From the NCBI RefSeq assembly GCF_900107095.1, contig NZ_FNOR01000006.1, positions 124,001 to 188,000 of the forward strand: a DNA stretch of 64,000 nt, read 5' to 3'. The translations under genes and the position numbers were made by a program. The first letter of the stretch is position 1. Each line of letters begins with the position of its first letter. The notes under the pieces were generated by a model, which had not been told where the DNA came from, did no database searches, and saw only the letters and a program-made list of their open reading frames with translations. Positions 35,362-46,457 of the stretch are shown one piece after another. Source of the stretch: Collimonas sp. OK242. GTDB lineage: Bacteria > Pseudomonadota > Gammaproteobacteria > Burkholderiales > Burkholderiaceae_D.

Positions 35362-35655
35362 CTAGCTTGAAATAGCCTGGCTTTTCTGCTCCTTCCAGCG
35401 CGCGTAGTCTCGTGGCAGACAAACCGCGCAGGGGCGATAGCCGGCTCCTTCGGCATCAGCCTGGTTGAGAAAGAACACCCGGTTCTTCACATAACCGCCT
35501 CTGGCGATCGCTTGCAGCGCTGTGCGGCAATCCAGGCGGCCATAGATGCGGCTGCGACGATGGCCGCCAAGGCTGCCTGCTTGATTGCTGTCATAGCTGT
35601 TGCCGTCGGCGCCGATGAGTCGCCATTTCTTGCATTTCTTGCCGACGGTATTCAC
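35362..35655 (-). CDS. Stand-alone Ada-type metal-binding domain protein
   Basis: The 97-residue protein is almost entirely one Ada-like zinc domain: [18 protein letters not shown] (Cys43), then [20 protein letters not shown], giving C76-A-V-C79. Cys8 or His32 could be a fourth ligand. The start is a GTG at 35655 that overlaps the ada stop (GTGA), so translation is probably coupled. Stand-alone domains of this kind occur in several phyla with unknown roles. Here it follows an Ada whose own zinc site is degenerate, which may be meaningful. Confidence 0.72.
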
Positions 35656-36749
35656 TCCCTGCTTTCTCGTTTCAGCAATGCCTGCTTACGTTCCACTCCC
35701 CAGCGATAACCCGAAGCACTGCCGTCGCTGCGTATCACGCGATGGCAGGGGATCGCTACCGCCAGGCTGTTGGCGGCGCAAGCCTGGGCCACGGCGCGCA
35801 CGGCTTTGGGCGAACCGATACGGGCGGCGATTTCAGCGTAGCTGGTGGTGCTGCCGGCAGGAATGTCGCGCAATGCTTGCCATACGCGTTGCTGGAAAGC
35901 CGTGCCGCGCACGTCCAGCGGCAAATCCAGACCGAGGGCAGGGGCTTCGATGAAACCTACCACCTGCGCCACCAGCTGTTCAAAATCGCGGTCGGCGCCG
36001 ATCAGATGGGCGCGCGGGAATTTATCTTGCAAGTCGTGCGCCAGGGCGTTCGGATCATCGCCCAGAAAGATGGCGCATACGCCGCGATCGCTTTGCGCCA
36101 CCAGGATTGCGCCCAGCGAACATTCGCCGATCGCGAAACGGATATCGGTGTTGGCGCCGCCGGCGCGATAGTCGGTCGGCGTCATGCCCAGCACCTTGCC
36201 CGATGCTTCATAGAAGCGGCTGTTCGAATTGAAGCCGGCGTCGTAGATCGCCTCGGTCACTGAATGGCTATGGCTGAGGTGATCGCGCACTTTTTTAGCC
36301 CGCTGCGCATTGGCATATGCCTTGGGCGTGAGTCCGGTGACAGCCTTGAATACACGGTGAAAATGAAACAGACTGAGGCCGGCGTCGGCGGCCAGCATCT
36401 CCAGGCTGGGTAACTCCAGCGCACTCTCGATGCTGCGGCAGGCGGCGGCCGCCAGCTCGGCATGATGGGCCGCCACCGAGGTTTGATCGGCGCCGCGTTT
36501 GCTGGGCCGGTAACCGGCCGCTTCGGCTGCTGCCGGGGTATCGAAAAAAGCGACATTTTCCGGCCGCGGCAGACGTGTCGGGCTGCTCGGGCGGCAATAC
36601 ACGCCCGTGGTTTTGACGGCATAGACAAACTGCGTGTCCGCGGCCGGATCTCTTGCCAGTACTGCCGCCCAGCGCGGATCGCGTTCGGCGCTTTGCCTGG
36701 CAGTGTGTTGCTGTTGTGTCAGCGTTCGCATATCGGTTTCCAATGGCAT
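35652..36749 (-). CDS. ada: Ada: adaptive response regulator and O6-methylguanine-DNA methyltransferase, degenerate zinc site
   Basis: From the ATG at 36749 the protein has 365 residues. It has an N-terminal Ada domain (1-90), an AraC-type helix-turn-helix ([20 protein letters not shown] and [20 protein letters not shown]), and a C-terminal methyltransferase with AIPCHRVI, acceptor Cys335. E. coli Ada binds zinc through Cys38, 42, 69 and 72. The matching positions here are Cys52, Ser56, Ser83 and Gly86, so only the methyl-accepting Cys remains. Repair of O6-methylguanine should be intact; phosphotriester sensing is doubtful. An Ada box lies 37-62 bases upstream. Confidence 0.9.
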
Positions 36750-36785
36750 ATCGTAGCTGTACTTTAGCAATGCGACGGAGGCCTG

Positions 36786-36811
36786 GCACTCCGAGTCTTG
36801 CTGTCAAATTC
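36786..36811 (-). promoter_or_regulatory. Ada box upstream of ada
   Basis: On the minus strand the core AATTTGACAGCAA (complement of 36798-36810) fits the E. coli Ada-box pattern AAT-N6-GCAA. It belongs to a 26-base stretch identical at 24 positions to the one at 39010-39035. TTGACA lies inside the core and could double as a -35 element, although no well-spaced -10 was found. Confidence 0.7.
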
Positions 36812-36828
36812 AGACAATATCGACTGTA

Positions 36829-37509
36829 TCAGACGGCGTCATTAGCCGTTGGATTCTTCGGCAAGCGCCACAGATACCAGGCCGCCATGGTCCGATAGGG
36901 ACTCCAGGCCAGGGCGATGTCGCCGATCTGTTTTCTGGTCGGCGTCTGCGGCAGGTTTTTCAGCCGCCGATAGCCTTCGCGCACGCCGAAATCATCGGCG
37001 GGCAAAATGTCCGAGCGTTCCAATGTATAGATCAGCAACATCTCGACGGTCCAGCGGCCGACGCCGCGCAGGCTTGTCAGCCGCTCGATGAGAGCGTCGT
37101 CGCTGATTGTCAGGGCCTCTGCGCGTAGCGGAACGACGCCATCCAGGGCCGCCTGCGCAATGTCGTGGATAGTCGCGATTTTGCTGGCAGAGAAGCCGCA
37201 GCCACGCAATATATCGACGGGCGTATCCAGCAGCTGCTGTGCAGTCGGAAAGGCGGTGCCGCCAAACAGGGTCAGCATGCGGGCCAGGATGGCGTCGCCG
37301 GCGCGGGCATGCAACTGCTGGTAGGCAATCGCTCGCACCAACGCTTCATACGGTTCACGCGCCGGTTTAGACGCATGGCGGCAAGGCCCGATATGGGCGA
37401 TATGACGGGCCCAGTCGGAGTCCAGCGCTGACAGGAATTTTTCTGCTTTACGGCAGGCGTTCCCCGATATATCCGCCGCGATCACGGTGGCGCTTGGCGA
37501 ATTCTGCAT
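36829..37509 (-). CDS. alkA: DNA-3-methyladenine glycosylase II, AlkA-like
   Basis: The 226-residue HhH-GPD protein has ALVRAIAYQQLHARAGDAIL, then the hairpin LTSLRGVGRWTVEMLLIYTL and the catalytic Asp region DILPADDFGVREGYRRL. It excises N3-methyladenine and related lesions. It lacks the N-terminal extension of E. coli AlkA, as do many short homologues. Its ATG overlaps the alkB stop (TAATG), so it belongs to the oxygenase-alkB-alkA transcript. The ada box lies just beyond its stop. Confidence 0.9.
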   Translation of the reverse strand: MQNSPSATVIAADISGNACRKAEKFLSALDSDWARHIAHIGPCRHASKPAREPYEALVRAIAYQQLHARAGDAILARMLTLFGGTAFPTAQQLLDTPVDILRGCGFSASKIATIHDIAQAALDGVVPLRAEALTISDDALIERLTSLRGVGRWTVEMLLIYTLERSDILPADDFGVREGYRRLKNLPQTPTRKQIGDIALAWSPYRTMAAWYLWRLPKNPTANDAV

Positions 37510-38162
37510 TAAGCGGCCTTGCGAAAAGTCAGGTTGATCCTTTGCCTGCCGAGCAGGGGATGTTCAGCCTCCTTCAGCGGCAGCACGCCGTGATAACGCA
37601 GCCGGTCGGCGCCGCCCCAGACCACGACGTCGCCATGGAACAGTGGCACGCGAATGCTCTTGTCGCCGCGCTCCTGGCCGCCGAACAGGAATATCGCAGG
37701 AATGCCCAGCGATACGGAAACGATGGGAGCCGCATAGTCCTGCTCATCCTTGTCCTGATGCAGCGACAGCCGGGTGCCCGGCTGGTAGCGGTTGATCAGG
37801 CAAGCGTCTGGCCGAAAGCCGTCGAAACCGGCTTGCGCCGCTGCGGCTTGCGCCAGCTGTAAAAAAATCCCGGGCATGGGCGGCCAGCTGCGGCCGTGCT
37901 CCGGATCGACAGCGCTGTAGCGATAGCCGCGGCGGTCGCTGGTCCAGCCGAGAGGGCCGCAACAAGTCATGGCCACCGACATGCGAAAGCCGCCGGGCGT
38001 CACCAGATGGCGGAATGGCGATGCCTGTTGAATCGCCGCCAGCAACGGCAACAGTTGCGCTACGTAAGGCGTGGCGAAACCGCGCAATACGAATGCGTCT
38101 GGCGCTAGTTGTTGCTGGCGCTTATCAGACAATTCTTCGGTGTCGAACAAATCTAAAGTCAT
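37509..38162 (-). CDS. alkB: Alpha-ketoglutarate-dependent dioxygenase AlkB
   Basis: The 217-residue protein has the Fe(II) ligands His135, Asp137 (LHQDKDE) and His191 (RYHGV). The 2-oxoglutarate-binding Arg208 and Arg214 lie in RQRINLTFRK. All are displaced by four from the E. coli residues. It reverses 1-methyladenine and 3-methylcytosine by oxidative demethylation. It lies 10 bases after the 2OG-oxygenase gene and overlaps alkA by one base. Confidence 0.95.
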   Translation of the reverse strand: MTLDLFDTEELSDKRQQQLAPDAFVLRGFATPYVAQLLPLLAAIQQASPFRHLVTPGGFRMSVAMTCCGPLGWTSDRRGYRYSAVDPEHGRSWPPMPGIFLQLAQAAAAQAGFDGFRPDACLINRYQPGTRLSLHQDKDEQDYAAPIVSVSLGIPAIFLFGGQERGDKSIRVPLFHGDVVVWGGADRLRYHGVLPLKEAEHPLLGRQRINLTFRKAA

Positions 38163-38172
38163 GTAATGCTCG

Positions 38173-38901
38173 TCATACAGCGTCGTGGAAAATAACGCCT
38201 AGCGTGTGTCGCGATCCGGAGCGGATACGGCTGACGCCATGTCGTAAATTTACTCTGTAAACGCCGCGCTGGCCGTGTACCGGGCGATGATGGACGGCAA
38301 ACACCACGGCGTCGCCCTGGCTCAAGGGAATTACCTCGGGGCGCGATTGCATGCGTGGCCGTTGCTCGGTCATCACGAACTCGCCACCGCTGAAATCGCG
38401 TCCCGGTGCGGATAGCAGGACCGCTGCCTGGAGCGGGAAAACATGTTCGCCGTACAGGTCTTGGTGCAGGCAGTTATAGTCGCCCCTGCCGTATTGCAGC
38501 ATGAGCGGGGTTGGCCGCAACTGGCCTGCGGCGTGGCAGCGGGCGATGAAGTCGGCATGTCGTTGCGGGAAGCGGGTGGCGATATGCATGGTTTCGTTCC
38601 AGCGGTTGGCAAGCGGCGCCAGCAGAGGATAGAGGGCGTTGCGCAAGTTGCCGATCAGGTCGGGTAAGGGGTAGCTGAAATACTTGTATTCGCCGCGGCC
38701 AAAGCCATGGCGTTCCATCACGACCCGGCTGCGGAAAATATCGTCGCGCGCATAAAGCGCGATCAGTGCGGTGCATTCCTCTGAAGTCAACAAGCGCGGC
38801 AACAGTGCACTGCCGTAGCTGTCCAGATCTTGATGGAGGTTTTCCCAGTCGATGCGCTTGAGCCGGTCTGCGACGGTGTCGACGGCCTGCGCGGCGTTCA
38901 T
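38173..38901 (-). CDS. 2OG-Fe(II) oxygenase of the alkylation-response operon
   Basis: From the ATG at 38901 the protein has 242 residues. The iron site is His146 and Asp148 (NCLHQDLYGEHVFPLQ), with a distal His (His221 in NLRHG) and a late segment SRHTLGVIFHDA. It belongs to the prolyl-4-hydroxylase-like group, not the AlkB family. Its substrate is unknown. Being first in a transcript with alkB and alkA behind an Ada box suggests a role in the response to alkylation. The longer frame open to 39048 crosses the Ada box and is rejected. GAGG precedes the start. Confidence 0.8.
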   Translation of the reverse strand: MNAAQAVDTVADRLKRIDWENLHQDLDSYGSALLPRLLTSEECTALIALYARDDIFRSRVVMERHGFGRGEYKYFSYPLPDLIGNLRNALYPLLAPLANRWNETMHIATRFPQRHADFIARCHAAGQLRPTPLMLQYGRGDYNCLHQDLYGEHVFPLQAAVLLSAPGRDFSGGEFVMTEQRPRMQSRPEVIPLSQGDAVVFAVHHRPVHGQRGVYRVNLRHGVSRIRSGSRHTLGVIFHDAV

Positions 38902-38954
38902 GCCGGCACCTCGCGTTGCCGCAGGCAGCGGGCCGTGTTGTGCAATGTGTCCAT
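38898..38954 (-). CDS. Possible 18-codon leader peptide before the 2OG oxygenase
   Basis: ATG at 38954 opens a frame encoding MDTLHNTARCLRQREVPA, and its TGA overlaps the oxygenase start (ATGA). CAGGAA stands upstream at a usable distance. The arrangement would couple oxygenase translation to the leader. It may be chance: such short frames are common, and no conserved peptide is recognised. Confidence 0.4.
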   Translation of the reverse strand: MDTLHNTARCLRQREVPA

Positions 38955-39009
38955 CGTTTGTTCCTGAGTGACTAACAGAGCCCCAGTGTAAGCAAGCTGT
39001 CGGGGCGCC

Positions 39010-39035
39010 GCACTCCGACTCTTGCTGTCGAATTC
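39010..39035 (-). promoter_or_regulatory. Ada box upstream of the 2OG oxygenase-alkB-alkA operon
   Basis: On the minus strand the core AATTCGACAGCAA (complement of 39022-39034) fits AAT-N6-GCAA. The 26-base context differs from the site before ada at two positions only. TTACACT, about 30 bases downstream of the core, may be the -10 element. Confidence 0.7.
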
Positions 39036-39063
39036 GAACGCCAAACAATGACTCACACGATTT

Positions 39064-45114: not shown

Positions 45115-46457
45115 TGATTATTATTGTTTACTCCGAAACCAACGCCGGCTCGATTGAAAGCAATCTGGGACTGCCGGAATACAGTTACTACTTTGTATTG
45201 AAGGAATTCCGCCCGGTGCTGGAGCAGCTGGGCATCGTGGTTGCCGTCAGCGATCCAGCGCGGGAGGTGGATGCCATCTACAGGAGCGCCAGGGCGCACG
45301 GAGAATCTTGCGTATTCCTGTCATTTTCGCCGCCGCACAAGACTGTGGTCGATCTTGTTTGTCCGACCATTCCGGTATTTGCGTGGGAATTCAGTACGCT
45401 GCCCAATGAGGTCTGGTTTGGCGAGCCGCGCCATGACTGGCGCTATGTCTTCAATAAGCTTGGCAGCGCGATCACGCATTCGGTATTCACCGCGGACTCT
45501 GTCAGGCGGGCGATGACGCCAGAGTTTCCGGTGGTGTCTATCCCGGCGCCGGTCTGGGATCGTTTTGCAGTATTGCGTGAAAAATTATCGATTGCAAATC
45601 ATCCGGACGGCGTGGTGCTGAATGTCGCCGGCACCGTGATTGATAGCCGCAGCGTCGACCTCTCTCCCTATAGTCCGCCGCGCCGGCGCGATCCAAAACC
45701 GGATCTGCTGCGGCCGCCGGCGCTTGCCCGGCGCGAGCCGATCCAAGTGCATGTCGGTGGCGTGGTGTATACCTCGGTCTTCAATCCGTATGACGGCCGC
45801 AAGAACTGGTATGACATGATCAGCGGCTTCTGCTGGGCCTTCCGTGATGTCGAAGATGCCACGCTGGTGCTGAAGCTGACGCATAACGATGCGCGCATCG
45901 GCATCGATAACCTGCTCGAAAATGTCTACAAGCTGACACCGTTCAAATGCAGGATTCTATTGATTCACGGTTATCTGAGCGACGCCGATTATGAAAACCT
46001 GGTGTCCGCGACCACCTATGTCCTGAATACCTCGCATGGTGAAGGGCAGTGCCTGCCATTGATGGAATTCATGTCTTGCGGCAAACCGGCCATCGCGCCG
46101 GTCAACACGGCAATGGCCGACTATGTCGATCGCGACAATGCGTTTGTGCTGGACTCCAACACCGAACCGAGCCACTGGCCGCACGATCCGCGCCAAGCCT
46201 ATCGTACCCTGCGTTACCGCATAGACTGGGGCACTTTGCTTGCCGCCTACAAGGAAAGTTACCGCGTCGCCAAACAAGATCCGGAAAAGTATCGGAAGAT
46301 GGCGCAGCACGCGGTACGGCAATTGCAGCTGCATTGCTCTCGCGCCGTCGTCAAAGAGCGCTTGCTGGCTTTCTTTGCCAGCCATGCCGGTGTAGGGGAT
46401 GGTGATGGAAACGGCGGAAACAATGCCCCGCAGGTTGCGGAAAAGGCATCTGCATGA
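45114..46457 (+). CDS. Glycosyltransferase (GT4-like), second of a tandem pair
   Basis: The 447-residue protein starts at ATG 45114 (MIIIVYSETNAGSIESNLGL). LGLPEYSYYFVLKEFRPVLE and FLSFSPPHKT align with the upstream gene. The donor site EX7E is in GEGQCLPLMEFMSCGKPAIA. The frame open to 45054 overlaps the upstream gene and is rejected. The last 20 residues are Gly/Asn-rich. Its stop overlaps the methyltransferase start (ATGA). It probably adds a terminal or adaptor sugar together with its paralogue. Confidence 0.78.
   Translation: MIIIVYSETNAGSIESNLGLPEYSYYFVLKEFRPVLEQLGIVVAVSDPAREVDAIYRSARAHGESCVFLSFSPPHKTVVDLVCPTIPVFAWEFSTLPNEVWFGEPRHDWRYVFNKLGSAITHSVFTADSVRRAMTPEFPVVSIPAPVWDRFAVLREKLSIANHPDGVVLNVAGTVIDSRSVDLSPYSPPRRRDPKPDLLRPPALARREPIQVHVGGVVYTSVFNPYDGRKNWYDMISGFCWAFRDVEDATLVLKLTHNDARIGIDNLLENVYKLTPFKCRILLIHGYLSDADYENLVSATTYVLNTSHGEGQCLPLMEFMSCGKPAIAPVNTAMADYVDRDNAFVLDSNTEPSHWPHDPRQAYRTLRYRIDWGTLLAAYKESYRVAKQDPEKYRKMAQHAVRQLQLHCSRAVVKERLLAFFASHAGVGDGDGNGGNNAPQVAEKASA

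Follow-up and report, generated by a model that had tools for sequence, protein, structure and literature searches.

Ada proteins of Collimonas and Pseudomonas that keep the methyl-accepting cysteine and lack its zinc-binding partners

The ada locus of Collimonas sp. OK242

We analysed a 64,000-nucleotide stretch of the Collimonas sp. OK242 genome, hereafter the window, in which an ada gene lies on the minus strand with a small gene downstream, further genes upstream and two Ada operators (Table 1). A sequence-only reading of this DNA had placed the start of ada at ATG 36749. While the frame stands, the start probably does not: of the three candidates, TTG 36770, ATG 36749 and ATG 36731 (yielding 372, 365 and 359 aa, respectively), the last is the better one, since two members of the genus (G028 and G097) have a stop codon immediately before its counterpart. 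We number residues in the 372-aa frame, where Cys52, Ser56, Ser83, Gly86 and Cys335 of the earlier 365-aa numbering become 59, 63, 90, 93 and 342.

The PF02805, PF12833 and PF01035 matches of the window Ada (100.8, 77.1 and 120.6 bits, respectively) and its match to a further helix-turn-helix model, PF00165, are all above the cut-offs, and the methyltransferase cysteine is invariant in the alignment, bearing out the earlier statement that the helix-turn-helix and the O6-methylguanine acceptor are intact. The NCBIfam Ada equivalog model also accepts the protein (444.7 bits, cut-off 345). Aligned with phmmer against E. coli Ada (PDB 1wpk), Cys59, Ser63, Ser90 and Gly93 correspond to E. coli Cys38, Cys42, Cys69 and Cys72; the multiple alignment likewise gives C, S, S, G for the window Ada and C, C, C, C for E. 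coli K-12 Ada (L276), so the residues had been read correctly. Below we use E. coli numbering for these positions. The window Ada thus does not carry the four zinc cysteines (CRPSC, PCKRC) and keeps the methyl acceptor Cys38; judged by its sequence, a Zn(Cys)4 site is excluded. All five A-box and B-box contact residues (positions 45, 71, 114, 115 and 118) are present.

In the neighbouring 226-aa alkA-like glycosylase the AlkA N-terminal domain is unmatched. An 18-codon open reading frame (MDTLHNTARCLRQREVPA, 38898–38954, minus strand) lies between the second operator and the probable ATG of the PF09859 gene, overlaps that start, and may be a leader. The genome has three PF02805 places: the window Ada, its small neighbour and, elsewhere, a four-Cys Ada–AlkA fusion (L001 244–1713, contig C15). 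In the fusion, Arg takes the place of the usual Gly35 (KTTRIYC); Collimonas could be using this protein as its sensor.

Table 1. Positions of the ada gene, its neighbours and operators in the window
Feature	Positions	Strand	Remarks
Small 97-aa protein	35362..35655	minus	Diverged Ada_Zn_binding; GTG start overlaps the ada stop by 4 nt
ada open reading frame	35652..36770	minus	Ada_Zn_binding without three zinc cysteines, AraC-type helix-turn-helix and O6-methylguanine methyltransferase in one protein
Cys342 codon, TGC	35745..35747	minus	E. coli Cys321, O6-methylguanine acceptor; by alignment
Gly93 codon, GGC	36492..36494	minus	E. coli Cys72; by alignment
Ser90 codon, AGC	36501..36503	minus	E. 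coli Cys69; by alignment
Ser63 codon, AGC	36582..36584	minus	E. coli Cys42; by alignment
Cys59 codon, TGC	36594..36596	minus	E. coli Cys38, methyl acceptor; by alignment
Ada operator upstream of ada	36798..36810	minus	AATTTGACAGCAA, then GACTCGGAGT (A box, B box, CGG element)
Short alkA-like HhH-GPD glycosylase, 226 aa	36829..37509	minus	Domain match
alkB (2OG-Fe(II) oxygenase)	37509..38162	minus	Domain match
Oxygenase-NA family (PF09859) gene	38173..39048	minus	ATG 38901 likelier start than TTG 39048
Ada operator upstream of the oxygenase, alkB and alkA genes	39022..39034	minus	AATTCGACAGCAA, then GAGTCGGAGT

The Cys38-only type is shared by several genera

We refer to Ada proteins with neither Cys42 nor Cys69 as the Cys38-only type. 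All 15 Collimonas genomes searched contain a match to the window Ada; in 14 it is an open frame, 84–100% identical, with the same Cys-Ser-Ser and with Gly, Ala or Ser at position 72. The question raised from the sequence alone, whether the loss of the zinc cysteines is conserved in a clade, is thereby answered for the genus, and the state extends beyond it into Pseudomonas. Among 399 genomes of the order, at least seven carry the type: in the best 30 matches, from which residues were taken, the first seven are of this type and the next 23 have Cys at positions 42 and 69.

In a Pseudomonas genus centred on a genome labelled P. putida, 144 of the 149 genomes searched gave a match. The best places read, one in each of 130 genomes, divide into 91 of the Cys38-only type, one of which has Gly at position 38, and 39 that have both Cys42 and Cys69, including L214 with its shifted last Cys; two more genomes, G495 (L136) and G544 (L262), are also of the Cys38-only type, bringing the count to 93 of 149, with the remaining 17 made up of five genomes without a match and 12 with residues unread. 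Cys38 is absent in one of the 93. A public genome scan returned at least 549 candidate stretches encoding relatives of the N-domain, from which we kept 80 loci, in genomes including Pseudomonas, Ralstonia, Burkholderia, Pigmentiphaga, Herbaspirillum, Rhodoferax and a Lysobacteraceae member. Of these, 79 were classified (76 Cys-Ser-Ser, one Cys-Ser-Asn, two without Cys38), and the eightieth, L174, is Cys-Ser-Ser; as the scan pattern consisted of stretches of the Cys38-only type, these counts give no estimate of frequency. The distribution indicates that an Ada with a lone sensor cysteine is a conserved form across several genera rather than a product of decay. Fifteen of 24 named genomes with the Cys38-only type have no second full PF02805 (Ada_Zn) match, so the type must often stand alone, without a zinc-bearing sister.

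Cys42 and Cys69 are lost together and nearly always replaced by serine

For residue comparison we gathered 206 near-full-length Ada matches (183 distinct), a set whose gathering favoured the Cys38-only type. The loss is all-or-none: 127 distinct proteins lack both Cys42 and Cys69, 56 have both, and none is missing only one. Of the 127, 125 have Cys at position 38, the other two having Gly and Ala; position 42 is Ser in 124 and Ala in three, and position 69 is Ser in 124 and Asn in three. Position 72 takes eleven different residues, with Ala in 90 proteins, and is gapped in one further row. After weighting, Arg45 and Arg71 each reach 0.93 in this type, and His115, Arg118 and the PCHR Cys each reach 1.00. 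Position 114 varies in both types, the commonest residue being Tyr (0.43) here and Phe (0.42) in the four-Cys type. While Val28, Pro47 and Phe55 are at 1.00 each in the Cys38-only type, the commonest four-Cys residue at these positions reaches only 0.35–0.54; their fixation could be a re-packing of a metal-free core.

The codons for Cys38 vary synonymously (116 TGC, 9 TGT), as expected under selection at the protein level, and the replacement codons are AGC or AGT in 123 of 127 genes at position 42 and 120 of 127 at position 69, each one step from TGC. Cys38 and both serines thus look to be under selection. Beyond Cys38, we saw in the aligned N-domains no Cys or His specific to the type; the conserved Cys91 is common to both types and lies outside the zinc site. 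Three similar Ada proteins of the Cys38-only type, L161 (Ala), L167 (Gly) and L307 (Gly), are without Cys38; they are natural tests of the need for this residue and indicate that it is not absolutely needed.

In a tree with the four trait columns masked (a quick search with SH-aLRT support only), 44 rows of the Cys38-only type fall in one supported set of 48, which also holds four four-Cys rows: L219, L223 and L225, of the alkA-ada type, and L214. This tree needs three changes and the tree without the N-domain needs five; with two long-branched rows left out, a single Cys38-only clade is not rejected (p-AU 0.071). We therefore do not take a strict single origin as a result of the tree, given three changes in a quick search and four-Cys rows nested inside the Cys38-only set. 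The codons, for their part, point to one TGC-to-AGY change at both positions 42 and 69, and the nested rows may have regained the cysteines, acquired them by a swap or kept them from an ancestor. L216, L218–L220 and L222–L226 are the four-Cys Ada of an alkA-ada pair in Pseudomonas; in those placed in the tree (L219, L223 and L225), the zinc ligands may have been regained or the domain swapped. L214 has Cys38, Cys42 and Cys69, with its last Cys two residues later (CKRANC), and is a possible intermediate.

Operators are retained

Two Ada boxes had been noted in the window, and both are confirmed, on the minus strand, as full three-part operators of the form AAT-N6-GCAA-N4-CGGAGT (36788–36810 and 39012–39034). 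AAT-N6-GCAA alone occurs 13 times in the window and is therefore not rare; position and the third element matter. Three of the 13 are followed by N4-CGG: the two repair operators and a match at 45379–45391, minus strand, away from the repair genes.

In the comparison set, AAT-N6-GCAA is found within 330 bp upstream of residue 31 in 73 of 127 Cys38-only-type genes, where shuffling gives a mean of 1.3 and a maximum of 5, and in 39 of 55 four-Cys genes, where the shuffled mean is 0.9. GCAA-N4-CGG precedes 110 of 127 and 41 of 55 genes of the two types, with shuffled means of 4.2 (maximum 10) and 1.8, respectively. The A-box place of the 110 Cys38-only-type operators reads AAT in 65, AGT in 27, GAT in 14, ATT in two and others in two; the 65 of 110 with AAT compare with 32 of 41 four-Cys operators. 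By this measure the A box is kept in the Cys38-only type, although less exactly than in four-Cys genes. The CGG element is absent at E. coli ada; the operators of these beta- and gammaproteobacteria combine the A and B boxes of E. coli Ada with a CGG resembling the X box of Caulobacter Cada2. A relative of alkB, alkA or the PF09859 gene lies in the same locus in 65 of 79 scan loci of the Cys38-only type. Operators and gene set together have the architecture expected of a self-controlling regulator of the adaptive response.

Comparison with known Ada systems

The window Ada resembles E. coli Ada (PDB 1u8b, 1zgw, 1wpk, 1sfe) in its three domains in the same order, in Cys38, Arg45, Arg71, His115, Arg118 and the PCHR Cys, in the AAT-N6-GCAA operator and in passing the NCBIfam Ada equivalog model. 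It differs in that Cys42, Cys69 and Cys72 are replaced, leaving no zinc site of the known kind, and in that its operators add CGGAGT. Bacillus subtilis AdaA/AdaB are also alike in part, combining an Ada zinc domain with an AraC helix-turn-helix. In B. subtilis, however, the regulator and the O6-methylguanine methyltransferase are described as separate proteins (PMC10779285).

Caulobacter Cada2 is reported to have no four-Cys domain and to be switched by its methyltransferase Cys (PMC10957082). The window Ada shares with Cada2-like regulators, as described there, the missing zinc site for the A box, the CGG after the promoter B box and the retained methyltransferase Cys. Unlike them it keeps an A-box domain (PF02805, where the Cada2 trait is a missing domain), Cys38, Arg45 and Arg71, and an A box; the RLHD motif of Cada2 is absent from its translation. 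The spacing GCAA-N4-CGG is one base longer than the 3-base spacer between the B and X boxes of Cada2, and is common to four-Cys ada.

In P. putida KT2440 induction has been reported to be Ada-dependent and the A box dispensable, with an alkA-ada pair and a short AlkA (PP_0706 being the Ada; PMC3788762) in a genus where the Cys38-only type is common. KT2440-like promoter patterns matched in 27 of 149 Pseudomonas genomes, none of them beside an Ada place. By resemblance to L223–L226 in length (350 aa) and in the ATT-N6-GCAA upstream of alkA, PP_0706 is most likely a four-Cys Ada. We accordingly do not read the KT2440 work as a description of the Cys38-only type, since the loci that come closest to it in gene length and operator position encode four-Cys proteins.

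The four cysteines are treated as defining Ada in the accounts of PMC10957082 and PMC10779285; a group that is three cysteines short, with the window Ada accepted by the NCBIfam Ada model, contradicts this statement. Among the titles and abstract starts listed, largely from outside subscription journals, we found no published description of the Cys38-only variant and no experiment on a protein of this type.

A proposed metal-free Cys38 switch

The zinc-thiolate electrostatic switch of Ada is the standard model of bacterial DNA-methylation sensing. That a large group has lost three of the cysteines while keeping the acceptor, most operator contacts and the operators means either that zinc is dispensable for the switch or that the trigger lies elsewhere. 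As the sequence-only reading anticipated, the known Zn(Cys)4 mechanism of E. coli cannot work here: a large group shares the Ser/Ser/x change and still carries the operators. What the comparisons establish, at the level of sequence, is a loss common to a large related group and all-or-none in our set, with Cys38, most A- and B-box contacts and the operators kept; this marks the Cys38-only Ada as a new variant of the family, the surprise being the removal of the zinc that underlies the textbook switch.

We consider the chances about even that this is a conserved, working Ada that has exchanged its Zn(Cys)4 centre for a metal-free site made up of a lone Cys38 and the conserved Ser42 and Ser69. 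Methylation of Cys38 would most likely still be the trigger, a reading favoured by the retention of Cys38 while its three partners went. The N-domain would fold without zinc and still read the A box; Cys38, as thiol or thiolate, would accept a methyl group, either from a methylphosphotriester or straight from the methylating agent, and this methylation would switch the protein to activation. The accompanying change in DNA contact would no longer reflect relief of the double negative charge of Zn(Cys)4 and would stem from a more modest shift in charge or packing at a single thiol, and the C-terminal equivalent of Cys321 would continue O6-methylguanine repair. The shared lone-cysteine form suggests, in other words, a putative metal-free version of the textbook switch. 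An AlphaFold model computed from an alignment of the Cys38-only type alone matches methylated N-Ada (1u8b, E 6.5e-11) and also 1zgw, with block pLDDT of 77–91 for residues 21–90; it is poor elsewhere (mean pLDDT 65, pTM 0.30). The model supports only that the N-domain fold is still encoded, and carries no information on metal.

Several points count against a metal-free switch at Cys38. Zinc activation of the thiol is part of known Ada chemistry. In E. coli Ada, zinc is reported as essential for folding of the N-domain (PMC4999995), and the protein is switched by Cys38 methylation (PMC4999995, PMC10779285). With zinc needed for folding and for thiol activation, a lone Cys may accept methyl groups poorly, and with at most one negative charge at the unmethylated site the published electrostatic switch would be weak. 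The loss of Cys38 in two of 127 distinct proteins and in L307 argues against its being absolutely necessary. The less exact A box is a further point, as is the four-Cys Ada–AlkA fusion of the same genome, which could be doing the sensing there. Taking the broader proposal as a whole, we hold it at somewhat under even odds that a metal-free Cys-Ser-Ser site, formerly Zn(Cys)4, detects DNA methylation by means of a single cysteine acting unaided and governs the adaptive response both in Collimonas and in over half of the species sampled from a Pseudomonas genus. Such a switch would be intermediate between E. coli Ada and Cada2, and the P. putida group may have regained the four cysteines.

Alternative triggers

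The trigger may instead have moved to the C-terminal methyltransferase Cys342 (E. coli Cys321), leaving the N-domain as an A-box reader only and Cys38 as a buried structural residue. This alternative, which we regard as possible though on the unlikely side, is favoured by the Cada2 precedent and by the weak charge difference expected at a lone Cys38: methylation of the PCHR Cys267 activates Cada2, and the unmethylated protein appears to be bound already to its own promoter (PMC10957082). The invariance of the methyltransferase Cys in our alignment is consistent with it, and so is the X-box-like CGG of the operators, albeit at a 4-base rather than a 3-base spacing. However, CGG also follows the B box of four-Cys ada (41 of 55), and is thus no clear mark of the Cada2 mechanism; the RLHD motif of Cada2 is lacking from the window Ada; and the retention of Cys38 in 125 of 127 proteins goes beyond what one would expect of a small residue with a purely structural role.

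That the regulator is constitutive or set by dosage, with no methyl switch, had been offered as one alternative from the sequence alone, and we judge it improbable. Without the zinc thiolates, DNA should no longer repel the unmethylated protein, if the published electrostatic switch is any guide, and L161, L167 and L307 are missing Cys38 altogether; yet a constitutive activator would hardly need either the cysteine that nearly all other members keep or auto-regulatory operators.

The small downstream protein and the remaining alternatives

The 97-aa protein encoded downstream of ada has Gly at the Cys38 place and Cys at positions 42, 69 and 72, the complement of the window Ada, and its His32 is invariant in one alignment (A4) and present in 11 of 12 rows of another (A2). 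These complementary residues, the conserved His and the 4-nt gene overlap would fit a zinc site shared between two proteins, with the small protein supplying the missing ligands. In the comparison set, 22 of 127 Cys38-only-type ada genes are followed by the small gene within 1 kb, versus none of 56 four-Cys genes, although 28 of the 127 downstream reads are shorter than 1 kb and only 13 of the 56 four-Cys reads reach it; in the other 105 of 127, no small gene is seen in the stretch read (up to 1 kb). Restricted to stretches of at least 1 kb, the counts are 22 of 99 versus 0 of 13 (p 0.07); within 60 bp they are 20 of 127 versus 0 of 56 (p 0.0005, from related sequences that are not independent).

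Whole-genome searches tell against such a site. No match to the small protein was found in 89 of 93 Pseudomonas and five of seven Burkholderiales genomes with a Cys38-only Ada, and the gene is missing from three Collimonas genomes; in the Pseudomonas sample the protein occurs in four of 93 Cys38-only-type genomes versus none of 56 others, which is not significant (Fisher p 0.30). We therefore rule out completion of the zinc site by the small protein as a requirement, and the partner protein proposed earlier is, in that role, unlikely. Elsewhere, without ada, the small gene adjoins alkA, methyltransferase or 2OG-Fe(II) oxygenase genes. In the E. coli Ada structure one short loop carries both Cys38 and Cys42, and a two-protein site would have to split that loop. 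All told, we consider an inter-protein zinc site very unlikely; the small protein looks more like a distinct, undescribed accessory within the set of alkylation-repair genes than like a zinc-site partner. A literature search with its annotation name returned nothing, a phage search found no relative at E up to 1e-5, and the gene was once seen near restriction and HNH genes on a Psychrobacillus plasmid.

Another metal or a cluster held by Cys38 with oxygen or nitrogen ligands, also raised from the sequence alone, is harder still to credit. While Asp56 is commoner in the Cys38-only type (0.79), none of the invariant residues peculiar to this type in the domain is a His, Cys, Asp or Glu, and one Cys per domain cannot form a thiolate cluster, Cys91 being common to the four-Cys type and outside the zinc site. 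We accordingly rejected alternative ligands within the N-domain, none being seen in the alignment.

Sequencing error or strain-specific, recent decay, which the earlier reading had named as what would undo it, can be dismissed: a broken copy exists in one reduced Collimonas genome, but the state is common to 14 of 15 Collimonas and 93 of 149 Pseudomonas genomes. In that fifteenth Collimonas genome (G083; L035 / L052), of 1.7 Mb, ada is interrupted by several stops, with Cys38 and the two serines still visible.
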